Notes under the pieces: model-generated
Seen by the model: only the letters and a program-made list of their open reading frames with translations
Told to the model about the DNA's origin: nothing
Databases searched by the model: none
Source of the DNA: an uncultured Clostridia bacterium
GTDB lineage: Bacteria > Bacillota > Clostridia > UMGS1883
NCBI GenBank assembly: GCA_947630975.1
Contig: CANRJP010000009.1
Coordinates: 1 to 44,262 of the forward strand
Length of the DNA: 44,262 nt
Direction: 5' to 3'
Program-made: the position numbers and the translations under genes
Shown here: in pieces, positions 7,073 to 25,676 of the stretch
Layout: each line of letters begins with the position of its first letter
Position numbering within the stretch: the first letter of the stretch is position 1

Positions 7073-7100
7073 TTGCAAAATTTTAAAGTTATGGTATACT
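7073..7100 (+). promoter_or_regulatory. Promoter of the dockerin/cohesin operon
   Basis: TTGCAA (7073-7078) and TATACT (7095-7100) with a 16-bp spacer. Transcription should begin near 7106-7108, at the base of the stem-loop that follows. Confidence 0.7.
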
Positions 7101-7104
7101 TATA

Positions 7105-7189
7105 GTATGTAATGGTTGAGTGGAAAATCTGCGCCTTTGAGGGGCGGCGCGGGGTTTCCGCTTGACGAACATCGCAAAAAATTACATAT
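7105..7189 (+). ncRNA. Structured 5'-terminal mRNA leader
   Basis: Three helices are nested: an outer 9-bp helix (7105-7113 with 7181-7189, core ATGTAAT/ATTACAT), a middle 9-bp helix (GAGTGGAAA 7118-7126 with TTTCCGCTT 7155-7163, including two G-U pairs), and an inner GCGCC/GGCGC helix (7131-7135 with 7146-7150). The structure begins at about the predicted first nucleotide and ends before the exposed SD AAAGGAG near 7200. It does not match a riboswitch class I know. It could stabilise the 5' end of the mRNA or act as a sensor; there is no terminator-like T run. Confidence 0.6.
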
Positions 7190-7213
7190 CTTTCTATGAA
7201 AGGAGTTTTTTAA

Positions 7214-8047
7214 ATGAAAAATTTGTTCGGCAAAGTCCTTGTCGGAGCGGCCGGTCTGGTTATGGCTTTCGGTCTCAACGCTTTTGCGGCCAACACCATA
7301 GTATTAGACACCCCCAAAGCCGATAAGGAAACCGGTAAGGTCACCATTTCCGGCACCATTACCGGCGATGCCGCGGAGTCGACGATCCTTGTAGTACCCG
7401 GAGATGTTAAGACCCTTGTGGAGCTTAAGGACACCCAGATCAAGTACATTGATCAGGAAACAGCCGCCTCCGGCGCGTTCTCTTATGAATTTGTTCTTGA
7501 GGTTGGCACCACGTACAATGTTTACTGCGGCGGTACCGATATCGTTTCCCCCCAACAAGACGTTATCGACCTCACCAATGCCGCCGGTACCTTCAAGATC
7601 ATCGGTAAGGTAACTCTTTCCGCTGAAGGCGCCGACGTGACCAAGGTAACCGCTACCGCTACCGCCGGTACCGAGAAAAAGGAAGCCACTGCCGACGCGA
7701 AGGGTGAATATGCCATCGAGGTTGCCCCCGGCACCTATGAGGTTGTAGTTGGCCGTGCCGGTTATCTGTACAGAACCTTCAAGGACGTACAGGTTGTCGA
7801 TAAGGACTATCCTCTCGCCGACACCGCTCTGCTTGCCGGTGATATCTTGGCAAGTGAAGGTGAAACTGCCGCTATAGTTGACCTTAACGACCTTCAGCCT
7901 CTCCTTTACGCTTACAATGTTAAAGATGGTGAAGAAGGATTTGATGCTGCAGTCGATCTCAATGATGACAAGATAATCGACCTTAACGATCTTCAGGCAT
8001 TGCTTTACAACTATAATTCTGACGCAAATGTCTACAATGCTAATTAA
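7214..8047 (+). CDS. Secreted protein with dockerin-like C terminus
   Basis: A 277-residue exported protein. Residues 1-25 are a signal peptide ending AFA. Residues ~30-125 form an unassigned beta-rich region; ~130-210 resembles a carboxypeptidase-regulatory-like beta domain (ADAKGEYAIEVAPGTYEVVV, then GYLYRTFKDVQV). Residues ~214-270 look like a type I dockerin: DLNDLQPLLYAYN and then DLNDDKIIDLNDLQALLYNYN, two calcium-loop/helix repeats. The second loop has the D-x-N-D-x-x-x-D ligands; the first is degenerate. The SD AAAGGAG is upstream of the ATG at 7214. Dockerins bind cohesins, and a cohesin-like protein is encoded 49 bp downstream, which suggests the two associate outside the cell. Confidence 0.82.
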   Translation: MKNLFGKVLVGAAGLVMAFGLNAFAANTIVLDTPKADKETGKVTISGTITGDAAESTILVVPGDVKTLVELKDTQIKYIDQETAASGAFSYEFVLEVGTTYNVYCGGTDIVSPQQDVIDLTNAAGTFKIIGKVTLSAEGADVTKVTATATAGTEKKEATADAKGEYAIEVAPGTYEVVVGRAGYLYRTFKDVQVVDKDYPLADTALLAGDILASEGETAAIVDLNDLQPLLYAYNVKDGEEGFDAAVDLNDDKIIDLNDLQALLYNYNSDANVYNAN

Positions 8048-8096
8048 TTGGTAATTTTGTGAAATAATATTCAAACTGAAAGCGAGGTAAATTGTT

Positions 8097-10193
8097 ATGA
8101 AAAAGTTTGTTTCTGCGCTTCTCGCTGTTACAATGCTTTTGACTTTTTGCGGAGTTGCCGCTTTTGCCGCAGATACGACAGTAATTACTCTGGGACTTGC
8201 GAAAACCCCCTCTATTGATGGCGTAGTTTCTGATCCGGCCAACATTCATGTTGGTGACGTATTTGAAGTTGCCGTTAAATTTACAAATATACAGGGTGAG
8301 TCATTCACTTCTGCTCAGGTAATTGTAAATTGGGATCCCGCTAAGGTTCAGCCTTTGGATTCTACAGGCGTCGATGCGACAACTAAGAAAAAGGTTGTTA
8401 ACCCCAATATCGCTATTCTTCCTGAAGAGGATGAAGATGGCGAGGATTTGTTCGACTGGTTTGCCAATACTGTAATTGATACAGAGAAGGGTGAACTTAA
8501 TCTCACAACTACTATTAGCCCAAGCAATAAGGTAGCTAAGATAGGCTATCCTCTTAACGGTGTAAAAGAATTTGATTTCTTTACCCTGAGATTCAAGGCT
8601 CTTGGAGAGGGCAGTACCGGTATAGCCATAAACAAGCAGATTTTGTATCTTGGTACTTCTAAAGCGGAGCTCACAGTTGAGCCTGTTGAGTTTACAATTA
8701 AGGGTAGCGAGCCCGGCCCCGTTCTTGATAAGATAACCGCTATTGAGGCTCCCGTTGTTCCCGCCGAGGTTACCGTAGACGATGAAGTTAAGCTTCCCGC
8801 TACGGCAAAGGCTACCGTTGAAGGCAAGACAGAGGCCGTAGAGCTTCCCATCACTTGGACTCCCGCTTCCGTAGATACCTCCAAGGCCGGCGAGGTTGCC
8901 ATTAAGGGCGTTGTTGACACTACCGGCTATGAGGTAGACGCTAACGTAAAGACCGAGTACGAGTTCAAAATAACCGTTAAGGAGAAGGAACCCGTTCCTC
9001 CCGCGGTTAAGACCATAACCAAGATCGAGGCTCCCGTTATTGACCTTGAGGTTGAAGAGGACACTACGGTTGAGCTTCCCTCCGAGGTAGATGCTACCGT
9101 TGAGGGTGAGACCCAGCCCTTAAAGCTTGCTCTTACCTGGCAGCCCGATATGGTAGACACCACCGCGCCCGGTGAGACCACCATTAAGGCCACCGCTGCC
9201 ATCCCCGAAGGCTACGAGGTAGCCGAGGGCGTAGCTGTAGAGTTCGAGTTCACCGTAACCGTTATCCCGAAGGAACCCGTTCCTCCCACAGTTAAGACCA
9301 TAACCGAAATTAAGGCTCCCGTTGTTGAAAGCCCCGTTCACGTAGGCGACACCGTTACACTTCCCGCCACGGTAGATGCTACCGTTGACGGCGAGACCGA
9401 GCCTTTGGCTCTCGCTCTTACCTGGAGCCCCGCCGAGGTTGACACCTCCAGAACCGGCAGAAAGACCGTTAGAGCCACCGCTGAAATTCCCGAGGGTTAT
9501 GAGTTGGCCAGGGGCGTAAGCAATACCTTCTCAATCACTGTCGTTGTTGAAACGGCTCCCGTAGGACCCGATGTGCCCGAAAAGGAAGTTATCGAAAAGG
9601 TACCGTACGTTGAAGTACCCGCGGCCGAAGAGCTTCCCGCTACCGTTGAGGTAACTCTTGCCAGCGGTGAGACCGTTACTGTAGGAGTAACCTGGTCCGC
9701 ACCCGATGAGACCGGTAAGGTAATCGGTACCATCGTTCCCGAGGACGCCGAGAAGTATGAGCTTGGCGAGGGCGTTGAGATCAACGCTTACGTTGTTCCT
9801 CCTGTAAACGCTCCTGTTAGCTTCGGCGACGTTGTAGTTGAGCGTCAGCCTGACGGTTCCATCAATGTATTGGGTAAGCTGGTTTACAATCCCGACTATG
9901 ACAAGGATCAGTTTGAACTTGGCGCCGATAATGAGAAGCTTTGGATAGCATACACCGTAATGAACGGCAACGCTGTTGTTGTTAAGGGCGTATTCAAGGG
10001 TCTTGTTCCTATCAATGTCGGCACCATCGTCAACGCTCCCGCTGATGATCCCGCAATAATTGAGGTCAACGGCGCTGTAGGCGGCGATACAATCAAGCTT
10101 TCCCTCGTACGCGATGTTGATTGGGATGAGGTACTCAGCGGCGATAACGTAGGTATCCCCGTTTCTCAGGGTTATACCGCTGTTGCCGAGTGA
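8097..10193 (+). CDS. Secreted protein with cohesin-like domain and four Ig-like repeats
   Basis: A 698-residue exported protein. Signal peptide 1-24 (ends AFA). Residues ~45-200 resemble a cohesin: VGDVFEVAVKFTNIQG, then a strand pair around AQVIVNWDPAKVQPLD and FDFFTLRFKALGEGSTGI, with an acidic insert (EEDEDGEDLFD). Four repeats of about 95 residues follow, beginning near 210, 304, 399 and 495. They share KTITKIEAPV, LPATVDATV and LALTWSPAEVDTS, as in bacterial Big_4-type Ig-like domains; the fourth is shorter and divergent. Residues ~570-698 are an unassigned beta-rich domain. There is no LPXTG, SLH or membrane anchor, so wall attachment is unexplained. It is 49 bp downstream of the dockerin-like gene and almost certainly cotranscribed. 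Confidence 0.82.
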   Translation: MKKFVSALLAVTMLLTFCGVAAFAADTTVITLGLAKTPSIDGVVSDPANIHVGDVFEVAVKFTNIQGESFTSAQVIVNWDPAKVQPLDSTGVDATTKKKVVNPNIAILPEEDEDGEDLFDWFANTVIDTEKGELNLTTTISPSNKVAKIGYPLNGVKEFDFFTLRFKALGEGSTGIAINKQILYLGTSKAELTVEPVEFTIKGSEPGPVLDKITAIEAPVVPAEVTVDDEVKLPATAKATVEGKTEAVELPITWTPASVDTSKAGEVAIKGVVDTTGYEVDANVKTEYEFKITVKEKEPVPPAVKTITKIEAPVIDLEVEEDTTVELPSEVDATVEGETQPLKLALTWQPDMVDTTAPGETTIKATAAIPEGYEVAEGVAVEFEFTVTVIPKEPVPPTVKTITEIKAPVVESPVHVGDTVTLPATVDATVDGETEPLALALTWSPAEVDTSRTGRKTVRATAEIPEGYELARGVSNTFSITVVVETAPVGPDVPEKEVIEKVPYVEVPAAEELPATVEVTLASGETVTVGVTWSAPDETGKVIGTIVPEDAEKYELGEGVEINAYVVPPVNAPVSFGDVVVERQPDGSINVLGKLVYNPDYDKDQFELGADNEKLWIAYTVMNGNAVVVKGVFKGLVPINVGTIVNAPADDPAIIEVNGAVGGDTIKLSLVRDVDWDEVLSGDNVGIPVSQGYTAVAE

Positions 10194-10233
10194 TCGCAAA
10201 GCAATAATTGAACATATTAGTGTTTAGCTAATC

Positions 10234-10272
10234 AAATACGGACGGTTGGAAACTCCTTCCGTCCGTATTTTG
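10234..10272 (+). terminator. Terminator of the dockerin/cohesin operon
   Basis: AAATACGGACGG (10234-10245) pairs perfectly with CCGTCCGTATTT (10259-10270), followed by TTGAATAG. It has a 12-bp stem and a weak T tract. Confidence 0.75.
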
Positions 10273-10293
10273 AATAGTACACGGCCCCGGAGA

Positions 10294-10502: not shown

Positions 10503-11513
10503 ATGAAGAAGTTCAAAAAGCTTCTGGTTTCGGCTCTGGCTCTCAGCCTTACCGTTACCGCCATGGCCGGCTGCCAGAAGAAGGAAGCCGAAGTTGAGCC
10601 CCAGCAGCCCCAGGCTCCCGAGGAAAAAGTCGTTTACAACATTGGCCTTGTACAGCTCGTACAGCACGAGGCTCTCGACGCCGCCACCAACGGCTTCCGC
10701 GACGCCCTCACCGAAAAGCTGGGCGAAGACGGCGTAAGCTTCAATTTCCAGAACGCCGCCGGCGACCCCAACACCTGCACAACAATCGTTAATCAGTTTG
10801 TTTCGTCCGATGTTGACCTGATTTTCGCCAACGCTACCCCCGCCCTTCAGGCCGCGGTAAGCGCCACCGACCAAATCCCCATCGTCGGCACCTCCATCAC
10901 CAGCTACGAGGTAGCTCTTGAGGAGCCTGACTGGGCCAACCGCGTGACCGGCAAGAACGTTACCGGTACCGCCGACCTGGCTCCCCTTGCCGAGCAGGCC
11001 GCCATGTTCAAGGAACTCCTGCCCGACGCCAAGACCATAGGTCTGCTCTATTGCTCCGGCGAGGCCAACTCCCAGTATCAGGTGGACGTAGTGGCCGATG
11101 AGCTCACCAAGCTGGGCTACACTCCTGTTAAGTACGCTTTCGCTGACTCCAACGACGTTGCCGCCGTTACCACCAGCGCCTGCGCCGCCAGCGACGCCCT
11201 CTACATCCCCACCGACAACACCGTTGCATCCAACGCCGAGATCGTCAACAACATCGCCATCCCCGCCAATATCCCCGTTATCGCCGGTGAGGAAGGCATC
11301 TGCAAGGGCTGCGGCATCGCTACCCTGTCCATTTCCTACTATGACATCGGCCACGTTGCCGGCGACATGGCTTACGACATTCTCGTAAACGGCGCCGACC
11401 CCTCCACCATGGAGATCGGCTACGCTGACAGCCTTACCAAGGAGTACGTTCCCTCCCGTATGGAGCAGTTCGGTATCACTCCTCCCGAGGGCTATGTAGC
11501 CATCGAGGAATAA
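10503..11513 (+). CDS. ABC transporter substrate-binding lipoprotein (ABC_sub_bind / TrpX type)
   Basis: A 336-residue lipoprotein: signal peptide followed by the lipobox AMAGC, the Cys being near residue 23. The mature part has the ABC_sub_bind fold features: YNIGLVQLVQHEALDAATNGFRDAL near residue 45, NQFVSSDVDLIFANATPALQA near 98, PIVGTSITSYEV near 127, and IPVIAGEEG near 258. Members of this family with the same three-gene order are known as tryptophan importers (TrpXYZ) in streptococci; the substrate here is unproven. It should capture the substrate at the outer face and deliver it to the permease encoded next. The SD is AAAGAGG, about 10 nt from the ATG at 10503. Confidence 0.9.
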   Translation: MKKFKKLLVSALALSLTVTAMAGCQKKEAEVEPQQPQAPEEKVVYNIGLVQLVQHEALDAATNGFRDALTEKLGEDGVSFNFQNAAGDPNTCTTIVNQFVSSDVDLIFANATPALQAAVSATDQIPIVGTSITSYEVALEEPDWANRVTGKNVTGTADLAPLAEQAAMFKELLPDAKTIGLLYCSGEANSQYQVDVVADELTKLGYTPVKYAFADSNDVAAVTTSACAASDALYIPTDNTVASNAEIVNNIAIPANIPVIAGEEGICKGCGIATLSISYYDIGHVAGDMAYDILVNGADPSTMEIGYADSLTKEYVPSRMEQFGITPPEGYVAIEE

Positions 11514-11552
11514 TCCCGAGTTACGGCTTTTCAGTAATTTTATAAGAAGCAA

Positions 11553-11584
11553 TGGGGCTGCGAGGGTAGACCTCGTGGCCCCAC
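11553..11584 (+). promoter_or_regulatory. Intra-operon hairpin between binding protein and permease genes
   Basis: CGAGG/CCTCG (11561-11565 with 11571-11575) stacked on GGGGC/GCCCC (11554-11558 with 11578-11582). The T tract is displaced (GTGGTTTT). This could act as a partial terminator or an RNA-processing stop that leaves more binding-protein mRNA than permease mRNA, as is common in importer operons; that role is inferred. Confidence 0.55.
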
Positions 11585-11626
11585 TGTGGTTTTATCGATC
11601 GATTCACCATTAAAGGGGAAATTATT

Positions 11627-12532
11627 ATGCTGACATTTATCAGTTCGTTGCCGGGCCCCATAGCCCAGGGCATAATCTGGGGCATAATGGCGATGGGCGT
11701 TTACATTACATTCCGTATACTGGACATCGCCGACCTGACCGTGGACGGTACCATGGGCACCGGCGGCGTTACCCTTGTAGTGCTGGTTGCCGGCGGCATG
11801 AACGTGGGCCTCGCCATGCTGATTGCCTTTTTGGCGGGCTGCGCCGCGGGCCTCGTGACCGGACTTTTCCACACCAAGTTCGGCATACCCGCCATTTTGG
11901 CCGGTATTTTGACCCAGCTCATACTCTATTCGGTAAATCTGCGCATCACCGGCCAGCGCTCCAACGTGCCCCTGTCGGTGGACAGATATAACCTTATTTT
12001 GTCCCTGCGCAACCTGGGCCGGGCCATTCTGGTGGGGGCAATCTTTGCCGCCGCCATAATTGCGGTAATGTACTGGTTCTTCGGCACCGAGCTGGGCCAC
12101 TCCCTGCGGGCCACCGGCTGCAATATGAATATGGCTCGGGCCAACGGCATCAACACCGACACCAACAAGATAATCGGTCTTGTGCTGTCCAACGGCCTTG
12201 TGGCCCTGTCCGGCGCTCTGCTGGCTCAGTATCAGGGTTTCGCCGACATCAACATGGGGCGCGGCGCGATCGTTATCGGCCTCGCCGCCGTAATCATCGG
12301 CGAGGTGCTGTTGGGTAAGGTGTTTAAAAACTTCGCCCTTAAGCTGCTGGCCGCGGTTTTCGGCGGAATAATCTATTATATCGTTATAACGCTGGTTCTT
12401 CAGATGGGCCTCAACGCCAACGACCTGAAGATGCTTTCCGCTCTGGTGGTAGCCGTGTTCCTGGGCATACCCTATTGGCAGAAAAAGCTTCGGGAGCGCA
12501 AGTCGAACAGGGAGGTGAAGGCAGATGCTTAA
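11627..12532 (+). CDS. ABC transporter permease (LivH/BPD_transp_2-like, TrpY type)
   Basis: A 301-residue integral membrane protein with about eight or nine hydrophobic segments. It starts MLTFISSLPGPIAQGIIWGIMAMG, with the conserved TFRILDIADLTVDG near residue 26, as in permeases paired with ABC_sub_bind proteins. The stretch GHSLRATGCNMNMARANGI near residue 155 is the cytoplasmic loop that contacts the ATPase. The SD AAAGGGG precedes the ATG. It overlaps the ATPase gene by 8 nt and should form the channel homodimer of the importer. Confidence 0.9.
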   Translation: MLTFISSLPGPIAQGIIWGIMAMGVYITFRILDIADLTVDGTMGTGGVTLVVLVAGGMNVGLAMLIAFLAGCAAGLVTGLFHTKFGIPAILAGILTQLILYSVNLRITGQRSNVPLSVDRYNLILSLRNLGRAILVGAIFAAAIIAVMYWFFGTELGHSLRATGCNMNMARANGINTDTNKIIGLVLSNGLVALSGALLAQYQGFADINMGRGAIVIGLAAVIIGEVLLGKVFKNFALKLLAAVFGGIIYYIVITLVLQMGLNANDLKMLSALVVAVFLGIPYWQKKLRERKSNREVKADA

Positions 12533-13322
12533 GGTCACCAACGTCTATAAGACCTTCAACAAGGGCACCGTCAACGAGAAGAAGGCCCTCAACGGCATAA
12601 ATCTGGAGCTTAAGTCCGGCGACTTTGTCACCATAATCGGCGGCAACGGCGCGGGCAAATCCACCCTTCTCAACAGCATTTGCGGAGTGTTCCCGGTGGA
12701 CTCCGGCAGCATCGTTATCGACGGCGAAGATGTGACCCGGCTGCCGGAGCACAAGCGTGCCAAGTATCTGGGCCGTGTGTTCCAGGACCCCATGATGGGC
12801 ACCGCCGCCGATATGTGGATAGAGGAAAATATGTCCCTTGCTCTCCGCCGCGGCAAGGCGCGGGGCCTCAAATGGGCCATAACCAACAAGGAGCGCACCC
12901 AGTACCGCGTTATGCTGTCCCAGCTTGGACTGGGGCTTGAAAACCGGCTCTCCAGCAAGGTGGGTCTGCTCTCCGGCGGCCAGCGTCAGGCTCTGACCCT
13001 GCTCATGGCCGTTATGCAGCAGCCCAAGCTGCTGCTGCTGGACGAGCACACCGCCGCCCTTGACCCCAAGACCGCCGAGACGGTGCTGAACCTCTCCGAA
13101 AAGTTCATCAACGAGAGCAAGCTCACCGCCATGATGATAACCCACAACATGAGGGACGCCATACACCACGGCAACCGCCTCATAATGATGGACAACGGCC
13201 GCATAATTTACGACGTCAGCGGCGAGGAAAAGAAAAACCTCACCGTGGACGACCTGCTCAAGAAGTTTGCCGATCTTAGCGGCAGCGCCCTTGACAACGA
13301 CCGTATGCTTTTATCCAAGTAG
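12525..13322 (+). CDS. ABC transporter ATP-binding protein (TrpZ type)
   Basis: A 265-residue ABC ATPase. Walker A GGNGAGKST near residue 42, Q-loop VFQDPMMG near 86, signature LSGGQRQAL near 148, Walker B LLLLDEHTAALDP near 170, and H-loop ITHN near 204. It powers uptake through the permease encoded immediately upstream (8-nt overlap). The SD GGAGGTGA lies inside the permease gene. A bidirectional terminator follows the stop. Confidence 0.93.
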   Translation: MLKVTNVYKTFNKGTVNEKKALNGINLELKSGDFVTIIGGNGAGKSTLLNSICGVFPVDSGSIVIDGEDVTRLPEHKRAKYLGRVFQDPMMGTAADMWIEENMSLALRRGKARGLKWAITNKERTQYRVMLSQLGLGLENRLSSKVGLLSGGQRQALTLLMAVMQQPKLLLLDEHTAALDPKTAETVLNLSEKFINESKLTAMMITHNMRDAIHHGNRLIMMDNGRIIYDVSGEEKKNLTVDDLLKKFADLSGSALDNDRMLLSK

Positions 13323-15111: not shown

Positions 15112-18100
15112 TCAAAGCTCGGGAACATAGTCGTAATCCGCCGACACGTCGCCGGCCTCGGACTCGTCGATTTCTGTTTCCACAAACTCTACGTTGACGG
15201 ACTCAAGATCCAGAATATCGGCATAGGCGCCGGTTGCGGCCTCGGTGCTGAGTCCCAGCTTGGCGTATTCGGCCTTAAGATTTCCGTCCGCGTCAAACAG
15301 CTTGGCGTAAGCTTCGGCGAAGCCGGGGAAGGTAACGGCTGTGCCCTCCTTGACGTTCTTGGCGATATACGCTAAAACGTCGTTCGCGGCGGCCAGACGG
15401 GAAGGCGTGATGGACGTTCCCTCGCCGTTCACTATGCTGTCGGCCAGCACATTGAACAGGCTGTCAACCGAAGTCTCGCCGTATATCTTCTTGCCATCAA
15501 TCTCAACATAGGGCCTTGCGGCGTAGAGACGGGCCGAGTTGCCGAGTTTGATGTCCTTTATGGTCAGGCGGAACACGTCGCTGGAAAGCTGCTCAAATTC
15601 GGCGTTAACGTTGGTCTTTTGAATGGTATAGCTGCCGTTTTCGTCCTTTTCGTAAGCGCCGTACTTGAAGCCCGCTTTGGTAATATCCTTAACCCGCTCG
15701 GCGTCGATGTTGATTGTAGTGGTAAAAGCTATACCCAGAGCGGCGGAGCCGTCCTCGTTGGTGAGGACGCGGAGCTCGGTGGCGGTGTCGAGCATGGCAA
15801 GCTCGGCTATCTCATCGGCGGTCATGGCGTAGTCGTAAATCTTGAACTCGTCGATAAGGCCGTTGTAGAACTCGCCGCCGGTGCCCCAGTTGGCCTTGCC
15901 TATCTGGAGTACGGATCTGGTGCCCAGCACGTCGGACAGGGAGTAGGCGCTGTCCAGAGTGCCCTTGAGCTGACCGTCAACATAAAGCTCGGTCTTATCT
16001 TTACTGTAAACAACGGTGACGAGCTTCCAGTCGGTGCCGATTTTATCTACCCTGATGTTGCCGGGACGGGCGCCGCTGTTGTTGTAGCGCTCAACGGTCA
16101 GTCCGCCGTTGTCCAGTATGCCAATGTAGTGCTCAAAGTTATTTGTCTGGGTAGACGCGCTGCTGGCGGCGAAGAAGGGCCACCAGTTGGCGGAAGTATT
16201 GTTGACCTTGTTATAGAAGGTGACGGTTATCTCCTCAACGTTTGTCAGGAGCGGGCTTCCGTCCTCGGCAGCCGTGGCGGTGAGCCAGTTGGAGCCTGTG
16301 CCGTCAAGGGACAGAGCCTTGCCGTACTTGCCGTCGGTGAGGACGTTGTCACCGTGGGACTCGGTCTTGCCAAGTCCGCCCTCGAAGCCGGTCTCCGCGT
16401 CGTCGAAGCTCAGGTCGAGGATTATGCCGTCGTAGGCCTCGGCGTCGTAAACGATGCTTACAACGGTGTCCTCGGCCACGGTGCCGGTGAGATTTTCTGT
16501 CGCGGCTTCATTGTAGGTGTAAAGGTTCTTGTTGCCCCGGAAGCTTTCGATTACATAAGAGCTTGCGTCGTACCCGTCGCCAACTCTGGCCTCGAAGGTT
16601 TCGGCGGTGCGAATCTCATTGCCCTCCGCGTCAACATACTTGACGGTGACGGTGGCGGTCTTGATTTCGCAGTCAACAATCTCACGAAGCGAAAAATCGT
16701 CAAGGTAGAGAGATGTGCATTGGTTCATCGAGTATGCTATTGTCGCGTAAATTTCCGCCGCGTTGACAACGTCCTTATTGGAAGTGTCAAGCAGATACTC
16801 GTATGTCAGCCATTTGCCAGCCTCACGAGCCGGGGTTCTGTTAACTCCTCCTGTATTCCATGACGACCAGCCGCCGGCGGCGGGCTTGTGGTTTTCTGTG
16901 CCGTAACCGGCCGATACTGTGGCGGCGTGCATATGTCCGCTGTTGGAATCGGCCACAGCCTCTGTCCAGTATTCGCTGTAAGTGAGTACATACTTTTTGT
17001 TGGGGGCAAGCTTAAAGTATGTCTGAAGGTTATTGTCATTGTTGCTTCCGGTCCATGAATTCTGCTGACTCTGATTTACGTGCAGCGAATTGTTGCCGTC
17101 TTTTGCATAATCGCTTGACTGTACCCAGTTTGCGCCAAGAGTCTGTGGCTTTTTATTGTACGAAGTCCAACCGTCGGTGCCGGTTTCAAAGCTGCCGTTT
17201 TCAATCATGTTTTCACCAAGCGTGATCTCGGCAAGAGCAACGTTGATAATATTCTCGGCATTTGACGCCTTGACCGTAAGGACGGATCTCTCGGTGTCTA
17301 CGATATAGTTCTGACCGCCAAAGCTGTAGATTAACTTATCCGGCGTATATGTGTAGCTCGAGCCGGGCATTACGAATACGCTTTCATTTTCGGAAACGGG
17401 GTCGCCGTTGTGGGTGAACTGTATCTTTACCTCGGCGGCGGGCACGTATCTGGCGGTGAGCTCGTAGGTATTGCCCTCGGCTATCATTACGCTCAAATCG
17501 GAGCTGGCCTTGTCAAGGTAGTAGGTGCTGCCCTCGTATTCAACGGTATCGGGGGCGGAATATGTGTAGATCTTGCCGTCGGAGAGGCCGGTGGTAACGG
17601 TCTTTGCCTCCTGAAGCTGATTTCCGTCCGCGTCCTCGAAGGTGACGTTTACCTTGGTTTCCTTCGTTTCGCCCTCGGTCTTGGTAGTGGTGAGGACAAA
17701 CGTCGGGCCGGGATAGAGAGTGCCGTCAGCGTCCTTAAATTCCGTATTTGTCACAGAAGCAAACTTCCGGCTTCCGCTTGCACTGAGCATGGCAAGTGTA
17801 AACTTTGCGTTACCGCCTTCCTGCATATATTCCTTAAGATTTTTTGTGAAATCAGCAACAAGCACTTCGCCGTCGTCGTTGACAGATCCGCCGTTGGCTT
17901 CGGTGTGATAGCTGTAGCCGGTGTAGGTTCCGTCGTTGATGGTATGCGTCGGCATTTTATTTGAATCAAGTACGAGATCAGTAAGAGTGTCTCTCGTCCA
18001 GTCGCCATAATCCATGAAATAGAAGTGTAGTGTACCCGCAGTATTTTTATCACTAGAATTTTGCGCTATCATGGTCATGCGGAGTTCCGCCTTTTCAACC

Positions 18101-21100
18101 TTGCTCACATCTACGCCGGTAAGGTCAAAGGCCATATACGCATTTCTATTCTGGTAATCCGAACAGCCTGCCTGAATGTAGCTTCTGTTATTTTTGCCGT
18201 CCTCTTTGTCACGATAACCAACGAATGTGTCCTTATCCGCCGTATACTCTTCTTCAACAACGGTGGTGACGCTGCCCACGCCAACGGCGTAAACATAATC
18301 TCCGTCCGGAGTGAATTCAACGTCCTCGCCGTTGAAGGTTACAGATGTTGCGTTCGGGGCGTAGAGCTTGACTGCCTGAGCCTCGTCTTTAGTGGCGGTG
18401 AGGTTTTCACCGGTTATGGCTACGGTTTCGCCGTTTACGGTCACGCCGATCGAGGTTATAGGCTGCTTGGAGTCTATAATGACCTGATCGCCCTTTGTAA
18501 GTCTTTGTCCGTTCACAAGGCCGTATACGGTATCGCCCGCGAAGGCGGCCTTGGCGTCGGTGGTGTAACCGCCGAAGGCGCCGTCGGCGTTATCGGTGTT
18601 CTTTACGTAAAAGTTGAGGTTGTCGCCGCCCGTAACGGTCACGGCGGAGCTGTCAAGCCCCTCGGTATCGTTTAATGTGAGGTTCGCGGCTTCTTCACCG
18701 GCCCTGCGGGGCACGATAAGGGTGCTGAACTTAACGTCCGCGCCGGTCTTTTTAAAGGAGGCGTACTTGCTGGAGGCCACAAGGCCGTAGTCGGCGCTGA
18801 AATAGCCGTCCCTTACCTCGGTTTCGGCGTCGGCGTTGTAAAGGTCGACGTTGGCACCGTCCGCGAAGTTGGTGGAAACGCTGTGACTGTCCGCGTCCGC
18901 CTCGGCGCCGCTGGAGGGCATAAAGTGCCAGTTCTGACGGTAAACCTGACTGTCCTTATTGCCGTCCACATAGTCGGCCACAAAGGTGAGGCCGTCCATA
19001 CCCTTAAGGAACAGCACGTTGCGGGTGTGCTTGGTGTCGGGATAGCCGTGCTGTGTGCTTGCGGCAAAGGTGAACAGATCGTTGCTTGCGTAGGTGCTTA
19101 TCTTTTCGGCGGACTGCGCATGGGCAGCCATGCTCACTCCCTCGGCCTCGACGGTGTTGTGGGCGCTGGCATAGCGCAGCTCGGTATAAATTGAGTTGTT
19201 GGGGTTGGAGTAGCCGTAGCGTCCGCTGTCCACAAGCAGGGGCTTGCCGTAGGCGTACATAAGCACCTGATTGGAGTCGGGGTGATAGTGGCCGTCGTTG
19301 GGGTTGTTCACAAAGGAAACATAGGTAGTTTCCTTGGGATCCCAGCTTGTGCGCATATATACGGAGTTGGCGTCGTCGTAGAGTACGGACTTGGCGTTCT
19401 CTACCTCGGCGTTGGAGGGATCGTCCGCTCCCTTTACATAGGCGTTGAGCACGGGGTCGTTAAGATAGTCGGCTATCATCTTGAACTCCGGCATCTTATC
19501 CCGGTAGTTGGAATCGCCCACGTTGGAGTCCCAGCCGTCGGGGAAGAAGCTCTGGGCCGCGTTGCGGGCGGCGTAGGTGAGCTTGGTCTTGAAGTCGGCG
19601 CTCATGGGGTTGCCGGACTTTTCGGCGGCTATGGCGCAGTCGGTAAAGAGCTTAACGCACCACTCCGCGTAGGAGGGGCCGGCCTCGGTGAAGCTCATAT
19701 CTTTGTTGTAGAGCAGATTAAGGGTGTATTCGACGTTGTACTCTACCTTGTCACGGAATTTGTCGTGATCCTTAAGCTCGGGCAGGAACTCAACGGCCTT
19801 GAAGAAGCCGGCGTTGGCGACTATTCTCCAGTTGCTCCACCAGGGTTGATCGCTGGTTATATCCAGACCGTTCAGGTAGTTGCAGTCGCCCCACATGAAG
19901 GAGAGTATGTTCACGAACTCGTCCAGCTTATTGTCGAACACGTTTGTGCCCAAAAGGGCGTCGACAATGTCCACCCAGCGGTTCAGGCGTTCGCCTGTCT
20001 CAAGGGTGCGGTTATAGCCGTAACTCATCTGAGTGGCGAAGGCGTCCATCAGGTCGACCAGCTTGGGGCCGAATTCCGCGCCGGGGTACTGTTCGTGATA
20101 GGGGTGAGTCTCGTTATACTTCTGCTCATCCTTGAGGTAGGACAGATACTCGTAGGCCATGGGCTTGCCGTACCAGAAGCGGGCGGTAACATTGTGATAC
20201 TCGGCGTCGGCGTTGGCGTCGGTGGCGCCTTTAGCGCCCCAGGTGGGATCAACGGCATTTTCATAGGAAAAGATATTTCCCTTTATGGCGTTCCATGTCT
20301 GCGTGTTTTCGTCCCAGGTGGTGTCGCCGATGTTGATCACCAGCACGTCCTTGGGGCCGGTGGTGCAGTCGGAAGCCAGCGCGGCGTTGACAACCAGCTT
20401 GGCGGAGGTTATGTTTTCACCGGCCATATCCGCCAGCGGGAAGTTCATATAGGCCCGGCGGGTATTGGCGCCGACTGGGTCGGAACCGGAGCCGTCCTCC
20501 TTGACATCAAGCTGCTGGGCGTCGCCGTACTTGGTGTCCTTATTTTGAGAGCTTATGTAGGTGTCGTTGTCGGCGACGACGGTTTCACTTCCGCCGCCAA
20601 ACGTGACCTCAAGTCTGGGAGCGACGGCGTCGCCGGCCTCCTTGGACTTGACATAAACGGGGTACTGCTGCTTGTCGCCGGCCATGAGCATAAAGCTGAC
20701 GGCCCCGTTGGCCAGCTCCTGCTTTACGCGGTCGGTGACGTCGATCTCATAATCTGTAAAGTCGGTGTTCTCTACGGTAAATTCCGCCTGCCACATATCG
20801 AACTCATAAGGTCCGGTGAGGATGTTCCTCATGGGCAGCACGGCCATGCCGTAGTTTTCGTCGGCCTCGGTAACGCCGCTGCCGGTGAATTTGTTGTCCT
20901 CGTGGCGCTGCTTAAAGTATTTGAGCAGCTCTTCCTTGGCCACTTGGTAGTCTCTCTTGTCCACGGCGTTCTTTACTGCGGAAAGCTCGGGGTTGTTGGC
21001 GTAGTCCAGCTTGGCGAAGAAGTCGCTGTCAGCCGTGTATGCGGCGCTCGCCCCCATGGGGAAGGCGGCCAGAACGGTGAACACCATCGCCAGAGCCAAA

Positions 21101-21129
21101 ACTAAGGCCATTACTCTTGACATTTCCAT
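15112..21129 (-). CDS. Giant secreted heparinase II/III-type polysaccharide lyase
   Basis: A 2005-residue exported protein; signal peptide 1-29 (ends ASA). Residues ~35-170 are unassigned. About 180-300 is a DNRLRE/CBM96-like domain (DNDTYISS, RRAYMNFPL). About 310-560 is an all-alpha toroid with WWSNWRIVANAGFF near 428 and EAGPSYAEW near 485; ~590-860 is a heparinase II/III C-terminal beta domain with GHYHPDSNQVLMYAYGKPLL near 612 and SAHNTVEAEG near 655. A second CBM96-like domain (~960-1110, DKDTFVGYRD) follows, then MucBP-like modules (~1155-1300 and ~1490-1565), a carbohydrate-binding jelly-roll (~1305-1485, ENGSFETGTDGW), a LamG-like domain (~1567-1775) and a C-terminal region unlike known anchors. 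It should cleave uronic-acid-containing polysaccharides by beta-elimination; substrate unknown. The SD AGGAGG fits the ATG at 21129. Confidence 0.88.
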   Translation of the reverse strand: MEMSRVMALVLALAMVFTVLAAFPMGASAAYTADSDFFAKLDYANNPELSAVKNAVDKRDYQVAKEELLKYFKQRHEDNKFTGSGVTEADENYGMAVLPMRNILTGPYEFDMWQAEFTVENTDFTDYEIDVTDRVKQELANGAVSFMLMAGDKQQYPVYVKSKEAGDAVAPRLEVTFGGGSETVVADNDTYISSQNKDTKYGDAQQLDVKEDGSGSDPVGANTRRAYMNFPLADMAGENITSAKLVVNAALASDCTTGPKDVLVINIGDTTWDENTQTWNAIKGNIFSYENAVDPTWGAKGATDANADAEYHNVTARFWYGKPMAYEYLSYLKDEQKYNETHPYHEQYPGAEFGPKLVDLMDAFATQMSYGYNRTLETGERLNRWVDIVDALLGTNVFDNKLDEFVNILSFMWGDCNYLNGLDITSDQPWWSNWRIVANAGFFKAVEFLPELKDHDKFRDKVEYNVEYTLNLLYNKDMSFTEAGPSYAEWCVKLFTDCAIAAEKSGNPMSADFKTKLTYAARNAAQSFFPDGWDSNVGDSNYRDKMPEFKMIADYLNDPVLNAYVKGADDPSNAEVENAKSVLYDDANSVYMRTSWDPKETTYVSFVNNPNDGHYHPDSNQVLMYAYGKPLLVDSGRYGYSNPNNSIYTELRYASAHNTVEAEGVSMAAHAQSAEKISTYASNDLFTFAASTQHGYPDTKHTRNVLFLKGMDGLTFVADYVDGNKDSQVYRQNWHFMPSSGAEADADSHSVSTNFADGANVDLYNADAETEVRDGYFSADYGLVASSKYASFKKTGADVKFSTLIVPRRAGEEAANLTLNDTEGLDSSAVTVTGGDNLNFYVKNTDNADGAFGGYTTDAKAAFAGDTVYGLVNGQRLTKGDQVIIDSKQPITSIGVTVNGETVAITGENLTATKDEAQAVKLYAPNATSVTFNGEDVEFTPDGDYVYAVGVGSVTTVVEEEYTADKDTFVGYRDKEDGKNNRSYIQAGCSDYQNRNAYMAFDLTGVDVSKVEKAELRMTMIAQNSSDKNTAGTLHFYFMDYGDWTRDTLTDLVLDSNKMPTHTINDGTYTGYSYHTEANGGSVNDDGEVLVADFTKNLKEYMQEGGNAKFTLAMLSASGSRKFASVTNTEFKDADGTLYPGPTFVLTTTKTEGETKETKVNVTFEDADGNQLQEAKTVTTGLSDGKIYTYSAPDTVEYEGSTYYLDKASSDLSVMIAEGNTYELTARYVPAAEVKIQFTHNGDPVSENESVFVMPGSSYTYTPDKLIYSFGGQNYIVDTERSVLTVKASNAENIINVALAEITLGENMIENGSFETGTDGWTSYNKKPQTLGANWVQSSDYAKDGNNSLHVNQSQQNSWTGSNNDNNLQTYFKLAPNKKYVLTYSEYWTEAVADSNSGHMHAATVSAGYGTENHKPAAGGWSSWNTGGVNRTPAREAGKWLTYEYLLDTSNKDVVNAAEIYATIAYSMNQCTSLYLDDFSLREIVDCEIKTATVTVKYVDAEGNEIRTAETFEARVGDGYDASSYVIESFRGNKNLYTYNEAATENLTGTVAEDTVVSIVYDAEAYDGIILDLSFDDAETGFEGGLGKTESHGDNVLTDGKYGKALSLDGTGSNWLTATAAEDGSPLLTNVEEITVTFYNKVNNTSANWWPFFAASSASTQTNNFEHYIGILDNGGLTVERYNNSGARPGNIRVDKIGTDWKLVTVVYSKDKTELYVDGQLKGTLDSAYSLSDVLGTRSVLQIGKANWGTGGEFYNGLIDEFKIYDYAMTADEIAELAMLDTATELRVLTNEDGSAALGIAFTTTINIDAERVKDITKAGFKYGAYEKDENGSYTIQKTNVNAEFEQLSSDVFRLTIKDIKLGNSARLYAARPYVEIDGKKIYGETSVDSLFNVLADSIVNGEGTSITPSRLAAANDVLAYIAKNVKEGTAVTFPGFAEAYAKLFDADGNLKAEYAKLGLSTEAATGAYADILDLESVNVEFVETEIDESEAGDVSADYDYVPEL

Positions 21130-23599: not shown

Positions 23600-23638
23600 T
23601 GGCTACAAATCCTTTCGTGTACAATTATACTTATTTTA

Positions 23639-23667
23639 ATTTTACACTAAAAAAAGAAATTTGTAAA
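23639..23667 (-). promoter_or_regulatory. Promoter of glyQS
   Basis: On the minus strand, TTTACA (complement of 23662-23667), 17-bp spacer, TAAAAT (complement of 23639-23644). The short leader excludes a glycine T-box or riboswitch. Confidence 0.7.
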
Positions 23668-23697
23668 GTACTTATTAATATTTTTTTAATATTTTTC

Positions 23698-23726
23698 TTG
23701 ACAAATCTTTTTACCACTTCTATAAT
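23698..23726 (+). promoter_or_regulatory. Promoter of the GH26-like gene
   Basis: Perfect TTGACA (23698-23703) and TATAAT (23721-23726) with a 17-bp spacer, divergent from the glyQS promoter. Confidence 0.85.
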
Positions 23727-23780
23727 ATAATTATAGGGATGGGAAATATCCAAATAATTATGCAAGGAGGAACACAACAC

Positions 23781-25604
23781 ATGAAGAAAATCATCCCCAT
23801 TATGGCGGCGATAATCACGGTCTTTGCCGCCCACTCGGCATTTGCGATCAATGTCAGCGTCAACGGCGTGAAAGTTAATTTCACCGCCGACGACGGCTAT
23901 CCCTTTGCCGAGAACGGCCATACCCTCGTACCCCTCCGCGCCGCCTGCGAGGCCTTCGGCGCCCAGGTGAGCTGGGACGCGGCCAACAATCAGGCCGTCA
24001 TAGTCAAGGACGGCGTTACCGTTACCGCTCCCCTCGGTGACAACCACGTTTACCGCAACGGCGAGGCCATCACCAACGAGGTCGCGACACAGGCGAAGGA
24101 CGGCCGTACCTATCTGCCCATTCGGGTGGTAATGGAGGCTTTCGACGCTCAGGTGGGCTGGGACGGCGCCAGTGAGACCGTCACCGTAAACGATCCCGAC
24201 GCCGTTTATATTCAGGGTCTGGACAAAAAAGTCGCGGGCAAAAACGAGATCAACAGGGCTCTGGCCCTGATCGATATGGGCCGGGCGTGCATGAAATCCG
24301 GAGAGTTCCATAACGCGGCCCTCTGCTACAAGCACAGCTCCGACTTCTGGTGGAGCAGCGATACCGAGGCCGCCCGCTACTATCTTGATCTTTCGGACAG
24401 CGCCGACGCCGACATCCGGCTCTTCCTCAAGACCGACGATCCCGCATATGACAGATCCACATATTACGGCGCCCCCTTTGAACCCAAGGACGCCGTGCTT
24501 CTGGGCACTACTTACAATTCCGACACCGATGCTCTCTCGGACTTCAAACACAATCTTATTCTCCAGTATTTTGACTACGGTGTGGAATTTTCCTCTCAGG
24601 ACAGTTGGTTCTTCAAGCCCCTCCGTCAGAACAATACCGTTCTCGAAGTGGCATGGCAGCCCAAAGATGGTCTTGACATGGTCAACGACGCCGACTATGT
24701 CATCCGTCAGGCCCAGTATCTCCAGAACTGCGGCGTTAAGATCCTTCTCCGTTTCGCCAACGAGATGAACGACGAGACCAGCTCCTGGTATACCCCGGAT
24801 TATAACAAGTACATCGAAAAGTACCGTTTCGTTGCCAACATTTTCCGTCAGTACGCTCCCGATGTAGCCCTGGTATGGGCGCCCAACTTCTATCCTCCCG
24901 ACACGGTAGACCTCTACTATCCCGGCGACGACGTTGTTGACTACGTGGGCCTCAGTGTTTATCAGGAATACGTGCCCACCAAGGATCCCTTTGATCCCGA
25001 GGGCCCCGGAGTTGAGCGCGGCCGCTGGCCCGACGTTTTCAAGCGGGTATATGACACTTACAGTTGGAAAAAGCCCATAATCATGGCCGAGGGCGGATGC
25101 AGCTATGTCAGCCCCTTCACCGGTCAGGACGTGTCCGACTTCGCCGTAACGCAGATGGGCCTGTTCTACACTTATCTGCCCATACTTTACCCCAACGTAA
25201 AGATGGCGGTGCTCTTCAACACCGTTGACTGGGGCGGAAGAATGTTCTTCCTTAAAGAGAGACCCGCGCTGGCCGAGGCTTATAAGAATGGCATCCACAG
25301 CTCCGGCCGGTATATAGGCGACATTTCCCAGACTCCCGCTCCGGAGTATTACTATGAGCTCCACAACAACTTCTCCGTGCCCGCCGGGCCTGTCGAGCTG
25401 TGCAGCTATATCACCTCTCCGGCGGTCGTTTACGACTATGTGACCTATACGATTAATGGCGTGGATTACAACTCTTACGGAATGCCCTACACGGTTCCCT
25501 TCGATTTCAGCGCTTACTCCGGCCAGACCCTTGAGGTTCGGGTTCGGGCCTTCGCAAATAACCAGTGCTGCGCCGACGAGACCACAAAGGTACAGGTGCG
25601 GTAA
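23781..25604 (+). CDS. Secreted GH26-like glycoside hydrolase with N-terminal stalk domain
   Basis: A 607-residue exported protein. Signal peptide 1-21 (ends AFA). Residues ~22-135 are a copper amine oxidase N-like stalk domain (TLVPLRAACEAFGAQVSWD and TYLPIRVVMEAFDAQVGWDG). After a helical linker, residues ~225-500 follow a GH26 TIM barrel: FANEMND near 324-330 holds the likely acid/base Glu, LVWAPNFYP near 362, YYPGDDVVDYVGLSVYQ near 380, and IIMAEGGCS near 434 holds the likely nucleophile Glu. The usual H of HEMNG is N here. A C-terminal Ig-like beta segment follows. GH26 enzymes mostly cut beta-mannans. Start at 23781 is chosen for the SD GGAGG 10 nt upstream; the frame is open further upstream. 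Confidence 0.85.
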   Translation: MKKIIPIMAAIITVFAAHSAFAINVSVNGVKVNFTADDGYPFAENGHTLVPLRAACEAFGAQVSWDAANNQAVIVKDGVTVTAPLGDNHVYRNGEAITNEVATQAKDGRTYLPIRVVMEAFDAQVGWDGASETVTVNDPDAVYIQGLDKKVAGKNEINRALALIDMGRACMKSGEFHNAALCYKHSSDFWWSSDTEAARYYLDLSDSADADIRLFLKTDDPAYDRSTYYGAPFEPKDAVLLGTTYNSDTDALSDFKHNLILQYFDYGVEFSSQDSWFFKPLRQNNTVLEVAWQPKDGLDMVNDADYVIRQAQYLQNCGVKILLRFANEMNDETSSWYTPDYNKYIEKYRFVANIFRQYAPDVALVWAPNFYPPDTVDLYYPGDDVVDYVGLSVYQEYVPTKDPFDPEGPGVERGRWPDVFKRVYDTYSWKKPIIMAEGGCSYVSPFTGQDVSDFAVTQMGLFYTYLPILYPNVKMAVLFNTVDWGGRMFFLKERPALAEAYKNGIHSSGRYIGDISQTPAPEYYYELHNNFSVPAGPVELCSYITSPAVVYDYVTYTINGVDYNSYGMPYTVPFDFSAYSGQTLEVRVRAFANNQCCADETTKVQVR

Positions 25605-25630
25605 TAATTTAAGGTAATAATATAAAAAAT

Positions 25631-25676
25631 GAGCGTGTCCCGACGTGTGATTTTCCACGGAGACACGCTCTCTTTT
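25631..25676 (+). terminator. Terminator of the GH26-like gene
   Basis: GAGCGTGTC (25631-25639) pairs with GACACGCTC (25662-25670), followed by TCTTTTT. Confidence 0.85.

Follow-up and report, generated by a model that had tools for sequence, protein, structure and literature searches.

A candidate two-gene operon for an enzyme-free type II cohesin/X-dockerin pair in an uncultured Clostridia bacterium

Two adjacent genes of an uncultured Clostridia bacterium probably form an operon for a dedicated, enzyme-free pair of cell-surface proteins, one with a type II X-dockerin and the other with a type II cohesin, and we give this reading a probability of roughly three in four. The window, which is the whole stretch of DNA that was analysed, is 44,262 nucleotides long. 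The type II cohesin-dockerin joint is the plug and socket through which cellulose-digesting machines are attached to cell walls. The pair described here occurs by itself, in one copy per genome and without enzymes, and it therefore probably builds something else on the cell surface. We regard the locus as a non-cellulosomal form of the type II cohesin/X-dockerin attachment module, for which we infer the binding, the anchoring and the purpose.

Gene arrangement and domain composition

Both open reading frames were read from the sequence exactly where the preliminary description, made from the nucleotides alone, had placed them. The features of the locus are as follows.

7073..7100, + strand: possible sigma-A promoter, TTGCAA-16-TATACT with TG before the second hexamer (position only)
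7105..7213, + strand: structured 5' leader of gene 1 (-37.2 kcal/mol, z -4.0)
7214..8047, + strand: gene 1, secreted X-dockerin protein of 277 aa (sequence, Pfam, PDB matches, model)
7214..7288, + strand: signal peptide of gene 1, aa 1-25, MKNLFGKVLVGAAGLVMAFGLNAFA (read directly from the sequence)
7289..7585, + strand: FN3/Ig-like N-terminal domain, gene 1 aa 26-124, about 99 residues (FN3 domains at Z 9-10.9)
7586..7822, + strand: X-module, carboxypeptidase-regulatory-like, gene 1 aa 125-203 (PF13620 E 9.8e-9, match aa 129-198; 5aq0 Z 11.2 and XDoc structures)
7826..8023, + strand: type II dockerin, gene 1 aa 205-270 (PDB sequence matches, profiles, fold, alignment)
7841..7891, + strand: dockerin loop 1, degenerate and lengthened, D210-D226 (alignment A6)
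7955..7990, + strand: dockerin loop 2, canonical DLNDDKIIDLND, D248-D259 (alignment A6)
8097..10193, + strand: gene 2, secreted type II cohesin protein of 698 aa (sequence, Pfam, PDB matches, model)
8097..8168, + strand: signal peptide of gene 2, aa 1-24 (read directly from the sequence)
8169..8708, + strand: type II cohesin domain, gene 2 aa 25-204 (Pfam, PDB matches, profiles, fold)
8733..9800, + strand: four Big_4 Ig-like repeats of gene 2, the stalk (PF07532 E 2.4e-20, 4 stretches)
9804..10190, + strand: C-terminal domain of gene 2, about 128 residues (profile search of genus genomes)
10227..10277, + strand: strong hairpin ending in TTTTG, probable operon terminator (-28 kcal/mol, z -5.9, reached by 0 of 200 shuffles)

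Promoter patterns of the sigma-A class were not above chance in the pattern scan (6 found, 4.4 expected), and the leader of gene 1 matched no Rfam family. The genes are 49 bp apart and folding revealed no hairpin between them. Together with the hairpin 3' of gene 2, which was absent from the pattern-scan list and became clear only on folding, this indicates that the two genes are probably carried on one transcript.

The C-terminus of protein 1 consists of two F-hand repeats, the first with a degenerate loop and the second with a canonical loop. Pfam matched no dockerin family in protein 1; with Pfam and NCBIfam as the sole basis the dockerin would have stayed unrecognised, and profiles and models were required. 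Comparison of the single sequence with all PDB sequences gave 4wi0_B (E 1e-9) and 4u3s_B (E 3e-9), the type II X-dockerin of Acetivibrio cellulolyticus ScaA, as the best matches, and profile A1, made from relatives, ranked the XDocII chains first. AlphaFold2 models of proteins 1 and 2 were built from 14 and 15 natural relatives, respectively. Every one of the eight type II X-dockerin structures listed for the model of protein 1 (mean pLDDT 89.3) scored Z 15.9-18.5, in seven cases over 140-145 residues, while the next unrelated row was at 11.2. In this predicted model the X-module lies directly N-terminal to the dockerin, with the fold of the solved XDoc dyads. PDB matches, profiles and fold thus all place the dockerin-like pair of repeats noticed in the preliminary description among the type II X-dockerins. 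By its predicted fold the module of gene 1 is filed in this class, with the two-site calcium feature present in one loop only. The X-module (aa ~125-203) and the FN3-like domain were absent from that description. Model comparison identified the first 99 residues of protein 1 as fibronectin-III/Ig-like. The same FN3-like domain also matches stretches of larger ORFs of 427-1941 aa in related genera (L098, L099, L091, L105, L107 and L100; f1 genomes G013, G011, G018 and G016), and it is therefore a shared domain and not specific to the pair.

In protein 2, the Pfam cohesin family PF00963 scored 22.9 bits on the whole protein (E 1.1e-4) against a curated cut-off of 24.1, and the same cohesin reached 26.3 bits, over the cut-off, in a six-frame search of its own genome. 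The closest PDB sequences to protein 2 as a single sequence were the ScaB cohesins of A. cellulolyticus (3l8q, E 1.5e-5). Profile A2, made from relatives, placed all type II cohesin chains first (E 7e-21 to 5e-7), and other types (5lxv, 4dh2, 5nrm, 3ul4) followed at E 1.5e-5 or worse. The top 17 entries matching the model of protein 2 (mean pLDDT 83.4) were all type II cohesins, at Z 14.7-15.5 over 146-159 residues with rmsd 2.4-3.2; type I cohesins ranked below at Z 14.1 or less, the gap to the best of them being small. A cohesin-like domain followed by four Ig-like repeats, as first described for gene 2, is therefore a type II cohesin by profile and fold, followed by Big_4 repeats. The preliminary description had also allowed for the lack of a profile match or of the predicted fold; a profile match and the fold were found for both domains. 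The predicted models show that each of the two proteins folds like one half of the complex that attaches cellulosomes to cells.

Searches of Pfam and NCBIfam found no catalytic domain, SLH domain or CBM in protein 1 or protein 2, in agreement with the initial view of an adjacent pair without enzymes. Reading of the sequences revealed neither an LPXTG motif nor a C-terminal transmembrane segment in either protein. A profile of the C-terminal domain of protein 2 matched in six genomes of the genus, in each of them once and only in protein 2. A domain confined to one protein is no common sorting signal, and its role as a general sorting domain was rejected on this ground.

Calcium loops and the expected mode of binding

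Dockerin loop 1 has 17 residues instead of 12 and lacks Asp-5 and Gly-6. Alignment A6 showed that this loss extends throughout the genus and that the length of loop 1 varies within it; in other genera of family f1 loop 1 has 12 residues. Calcium ligands are expected at positions 1, 3, 5, 9 and 12 of both F-hand loops, and the set is complete in loop 2 only. Because Asp-5 and Gly-6 are missing genus-wide, calcium binding at loop 1 may be altered, and to judge from the alignment this loop may bind calcium weakly or not at all. Loop 1 of the ScaA X-dockerin contains an "unusual four residue insertion", and crystals of this X-dockerin with its cohesin were nevertheless obtained in both 180-degree orientations, by means of two single-site variants; the repeat residues Leu134/Leu167 and Glu135/Glu168 are central to its binding (PMC5141474).

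The two repeats of one protein are identical at 72% of 15 positions, compared with 37% when repeats of different proteins are paired at random (the observed value was reached in 0 of 100,000 shuffles), the repeats being picked by hand from alignments of related and hence not independent sequences. There are 16 different recognition dyads among 17 proteins, and in 12 of the 17 the dyad is identical in both repeats; shuffling gave a mean of 0.8 and a maximum of 6, and none of 100,000 shuffles reached 12. The dockerin thus keeps its two faces alike, which is what dual binding would require, and the specificity drifts between species. This comparison of sequences suggests a dual-binding, species-specific pair. 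The degeneracy of the first loop noted at the outset is a property of the whole genus, while the changed binding mode that it might have meant is not supported, given the precedent of ScaA (PMC5141474) and the symmetry of the repeats, whose recognition helices are nearly identical.

It is very improbable that the dockerin and the cohesin no longer bind each other, with a first loop that leaves the dockerin unfolded and a similarity of fold that reflects ancestry only. The absence of Asp-5/Gly-6 and the variable length of loop 1 in the genus would fit such a loss. However, PMC5141474 reports a four-residue insertion in the same loop of ScaA that is compatible with binding, both recognition helices are conserved in concert, and most of the dockerin is modelled with confidence (pLDDT 93-95 in blocks that follow loop 1, 72-78 in those around this loop).

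Conservation of the pair and other cohesins of the genome

One dockerin matching profile A6 and one full-length cohesin matching profile A2 were found in all eight genomes of the genus, all of which are draft assemblies (2.95 Mb for that of the window). In the seven genomes with unbroken loci the two genes are adjacent, on the same strand and in the same order, 35-62 bp apart; in the eighth (G004) two contig ends divide the dockerin gene, whose last part lies 5' of the cohesin gene. This single full-length match of each kind per genome, with the dockerin gene of G004 cut by the contig end, gives a good foundation to the term "private pair" used in the preliminary description. Weak A2 matches are numerous in the genus, and most of them were set aside because they are signal peptides matching model positions 1-40. 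A profile search of genome contigs with the genus-only alignment returned four MAGs. The named relatives within the genus are MAGs of uncultured Clostridia whose isolate names contain "Lapin", which we read as rabbit gut.

The pair is also present in other genera of family f1 (G008, G009 twice, G011, G013 and G016), in family f3 of the same taxonomic order (G023, G025) and elsewhere in the class (G034, G141). With a chance of about 1/2300 per genome, for an assumed gene number, such adjacency, repeated in one genus after another, is no accident. An X-dockerin ORF is likewise followed by a type II cohesin ORF in genomes of family f51, and the proteins are much larger. In G315 they have 1853 aa and 2313 aa and, from length and sequence, are presumably CipA and OlpB of Clostridium thermocellum. 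This scaffoldin/anchor arrangement in G315 and other f51 genomes would be compatible with the locus being a vestige of a lost cellulosome, left with little or no function after a CipA-OlpB-like locus lost its enzymes, type I cohesins and CBM. We consider this unlikely, as the pair is kept with intact frames in all genomes of the genus and in other f1 genera, the symmetry of the dockerin repeats is actively maintained, the FN3-like domain is conserved, and relatives have functional-looking versions with SLH domains.

These SLH versions bear on the anchoring side. Pfam found three SLH domains at the end of the cohesin partner in G034, which has two such cohesin genes, and in G023; the partner in G025 ends in SLH-like sequence by reading. 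Gene 2 has none, whereas 51 SLH matches fall in other proteins of the genome of the window. The early remark that the pair has no wall anchor is thus correct for this genus and fails for these relatives, and in the genus SLH domains on the cohesin partner were either lost or never present. By analogy with the SLH-bearing relatives, protein 2 would face the envelope.

At least five other proteins of the genome of the window carry cohesins, several of them as cohesin-dockerin-cohesin cassettes. Contigs C16, C28, C38 and C155 (L067, L071, L068 and L069) encode large surface proteins that end in such cassettes and carry Listeria-Bacteroides repeats, BspA-type LRRs and Big_2 domains; in the protein of C170 (L070) a cohesin but no dockerin was recognised. 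Chains that combine a cohesin with a dockerin could polymerise or cross-link. These proteins raise the alternative that the gene 1 dockerin has its main partners among the other cohesins of its own genome and is an adaptor in a larger cohesin/dockerin network. The dockerin of the cassette protein that was compared with solved structures, C16, however matched type I dockerins, profile searches of the genome gave neither another A6-type dockerin above E 0.85 nor another full-length A2 cohesin, and the adjoining gene supplies a cohesin of the matching class. An adaptor role is accordingly improbable. The type I-like nature of C16 and the lack of a second dockerin or full cohesin of the window's class favour, by sequence, a private pair, with some cross-binding to other cohesins possible.

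PF00404 finds five dockerin ORFs in the genome. Pfam detected no glycoside hydrolase on those of C16, C28 and C155 (that of C38, cut at the contig end, was left out), and the fifth, on C11, carries an M60-like peptidase. Pfam also revealed no multi-cohesin scaffoldin with a CBM: gene 2 carries a single cohesin, and none of the other cohesin ORFs that were scanned has more than two cohesins or a CBM. The C11 protein (L072:7283-12607) has 1774 aa, with the M60-like peptidase and a dockerin near the N-terminus. Directly after its gene, L072 12623-13735 encodes a secreted protein of 370 aa without a Pfam match, and ORFs of similar size (369-377 aa) in G001, G002 and G003 show a weak match to the first half of the type II cohesin profile.

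Relation to known systems and proposed assembly

For both halves of the pair, the closest solved relatives are in the ScaA/ScaB complex of A. cellulolyticus (4u3s, 4wi0), in which the ScaA XDoc and the ScaB cohesin are two chains of one solved structure (PMC5141474). As in ScaA, protein 1 combines an X-module with a dockerin of near-identical repeats and an insertion in the first calcium loop. ScaA is a scaffoldin that holds enzymes through many type I cohesins, whereas here the X-dockerin is borne by one FN3-like domain only. In the CipA-OlpB locus of C. thermocellum the gene with the type II dockerin directly precedes that of an anchoring scaffoldin, and gene order, secretion and the module classes on each side are alike. 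Unlike CipA-OlpB, the present locus has no CBM3, type I cohesins or enzymes, its partner has one cohesin instead of several, and SLH domains are absent from the partner in this genus. CipB of C. thermocellum (Cthe_1806), a protein that is not an enzyme and has no known function, resembles protein 1 in its type II X-dockerin; it differs in its 2177 aa with repeat regions, and the available part of PMC5141474 describes no neighbouring cohesin gene.

Cohesins outside cellulosomes are also represented by that of Archaeoglobus fulgidus (2xdh) and those of C. perfringens glycoside hydrolases (2vo8, 2jh2). They are structurally farther from the cohesin of protein 2 (Z 12.1-12.8 compared with 15.5 for type II), and the C. 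perfringens modules sit on enzymes, unlike the present pair. In the wider literature, cohesins as well as dockerins are already known from noncellulosomal settings. Work on the type II cohesin/X-dockerin joint has, to our knowledge, dealt almost only with its role in attaching cellulosomes. The widespread occurrence of an enzyme-free, one-to-one version among gut Clostridia suggests that general surface assembly is one use of the joint and may be its origin. Surveys that ask for a dockerin-bearing enzyme and a multi-cohesin protein would miss such pairs, as would Pfam's dockerin model. One recent genome survey (PMC11557425) counted only genomes with at least one dockerin-glycoside hydrolase and a protein that has two or more cohesins, so an enzyme-free locus with a single cohesin lies outside its scope. 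No account of a type II pair that is adjacent and enzyme-free came up in a search of the open-access literature, with most subscription journals outside it.

In the assembly that we propose, both proteins would be secreted, as their signal peptides indicate. By comparison with the known complexes, the cohesin of protein 2 would clamp the X-dockerin of protein 1 in the dual-binding mode, with calcium probably bound at least in loop 2 of the dockerin. Protein 2 would be the surface-side partner, with a Big_4 stalk and a C-terminal domain facing the envelope or another structure, and protein 1 would be a small plug displaying one FN3-like domain. Since the plug displays only this domain, the assembly may present a surface ligand-binding or matrix domain and not enzymes. 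The FN3-like domain might act on a ligand, on a partner protein or by self-association.

A bolder proposal, which we advance tentatively, is that the pair works by itself as a species-specific molecular fastener of a surface or matrix layer, either derived from or ancestral to the cellulosome anchoring module. The recognition residues diverge between species yet are locked in both repeats, so each species might have its own orthogonal plug and socket. If specificity does differ from species to species, the family offers orthogonal cohesin-dockerin pairs ready for use.

The surroundings of the pair include several further genes. At 23631-25658 (- strand) an ORF of 675 aa has no match in Pfam or NCBIfam. 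Directly 3' of the pair, positions 10503-13322 hold a likely ABC transporter operon (by reading, a substrate-binding lipoprotein, a permease and an ATPase), which is also directly downstream of the pair in several members of the genus (L050, L051, L054, L055 and L057). At 15112-21129 (- strand) a protein of 2005 aa combines heparinase II/III-like, CBM96 (DNRLRE), laminin-G-like and MucBP domains; it lacks a dockerin and is a large surface protein, active on glycans, encoded close to the pair.
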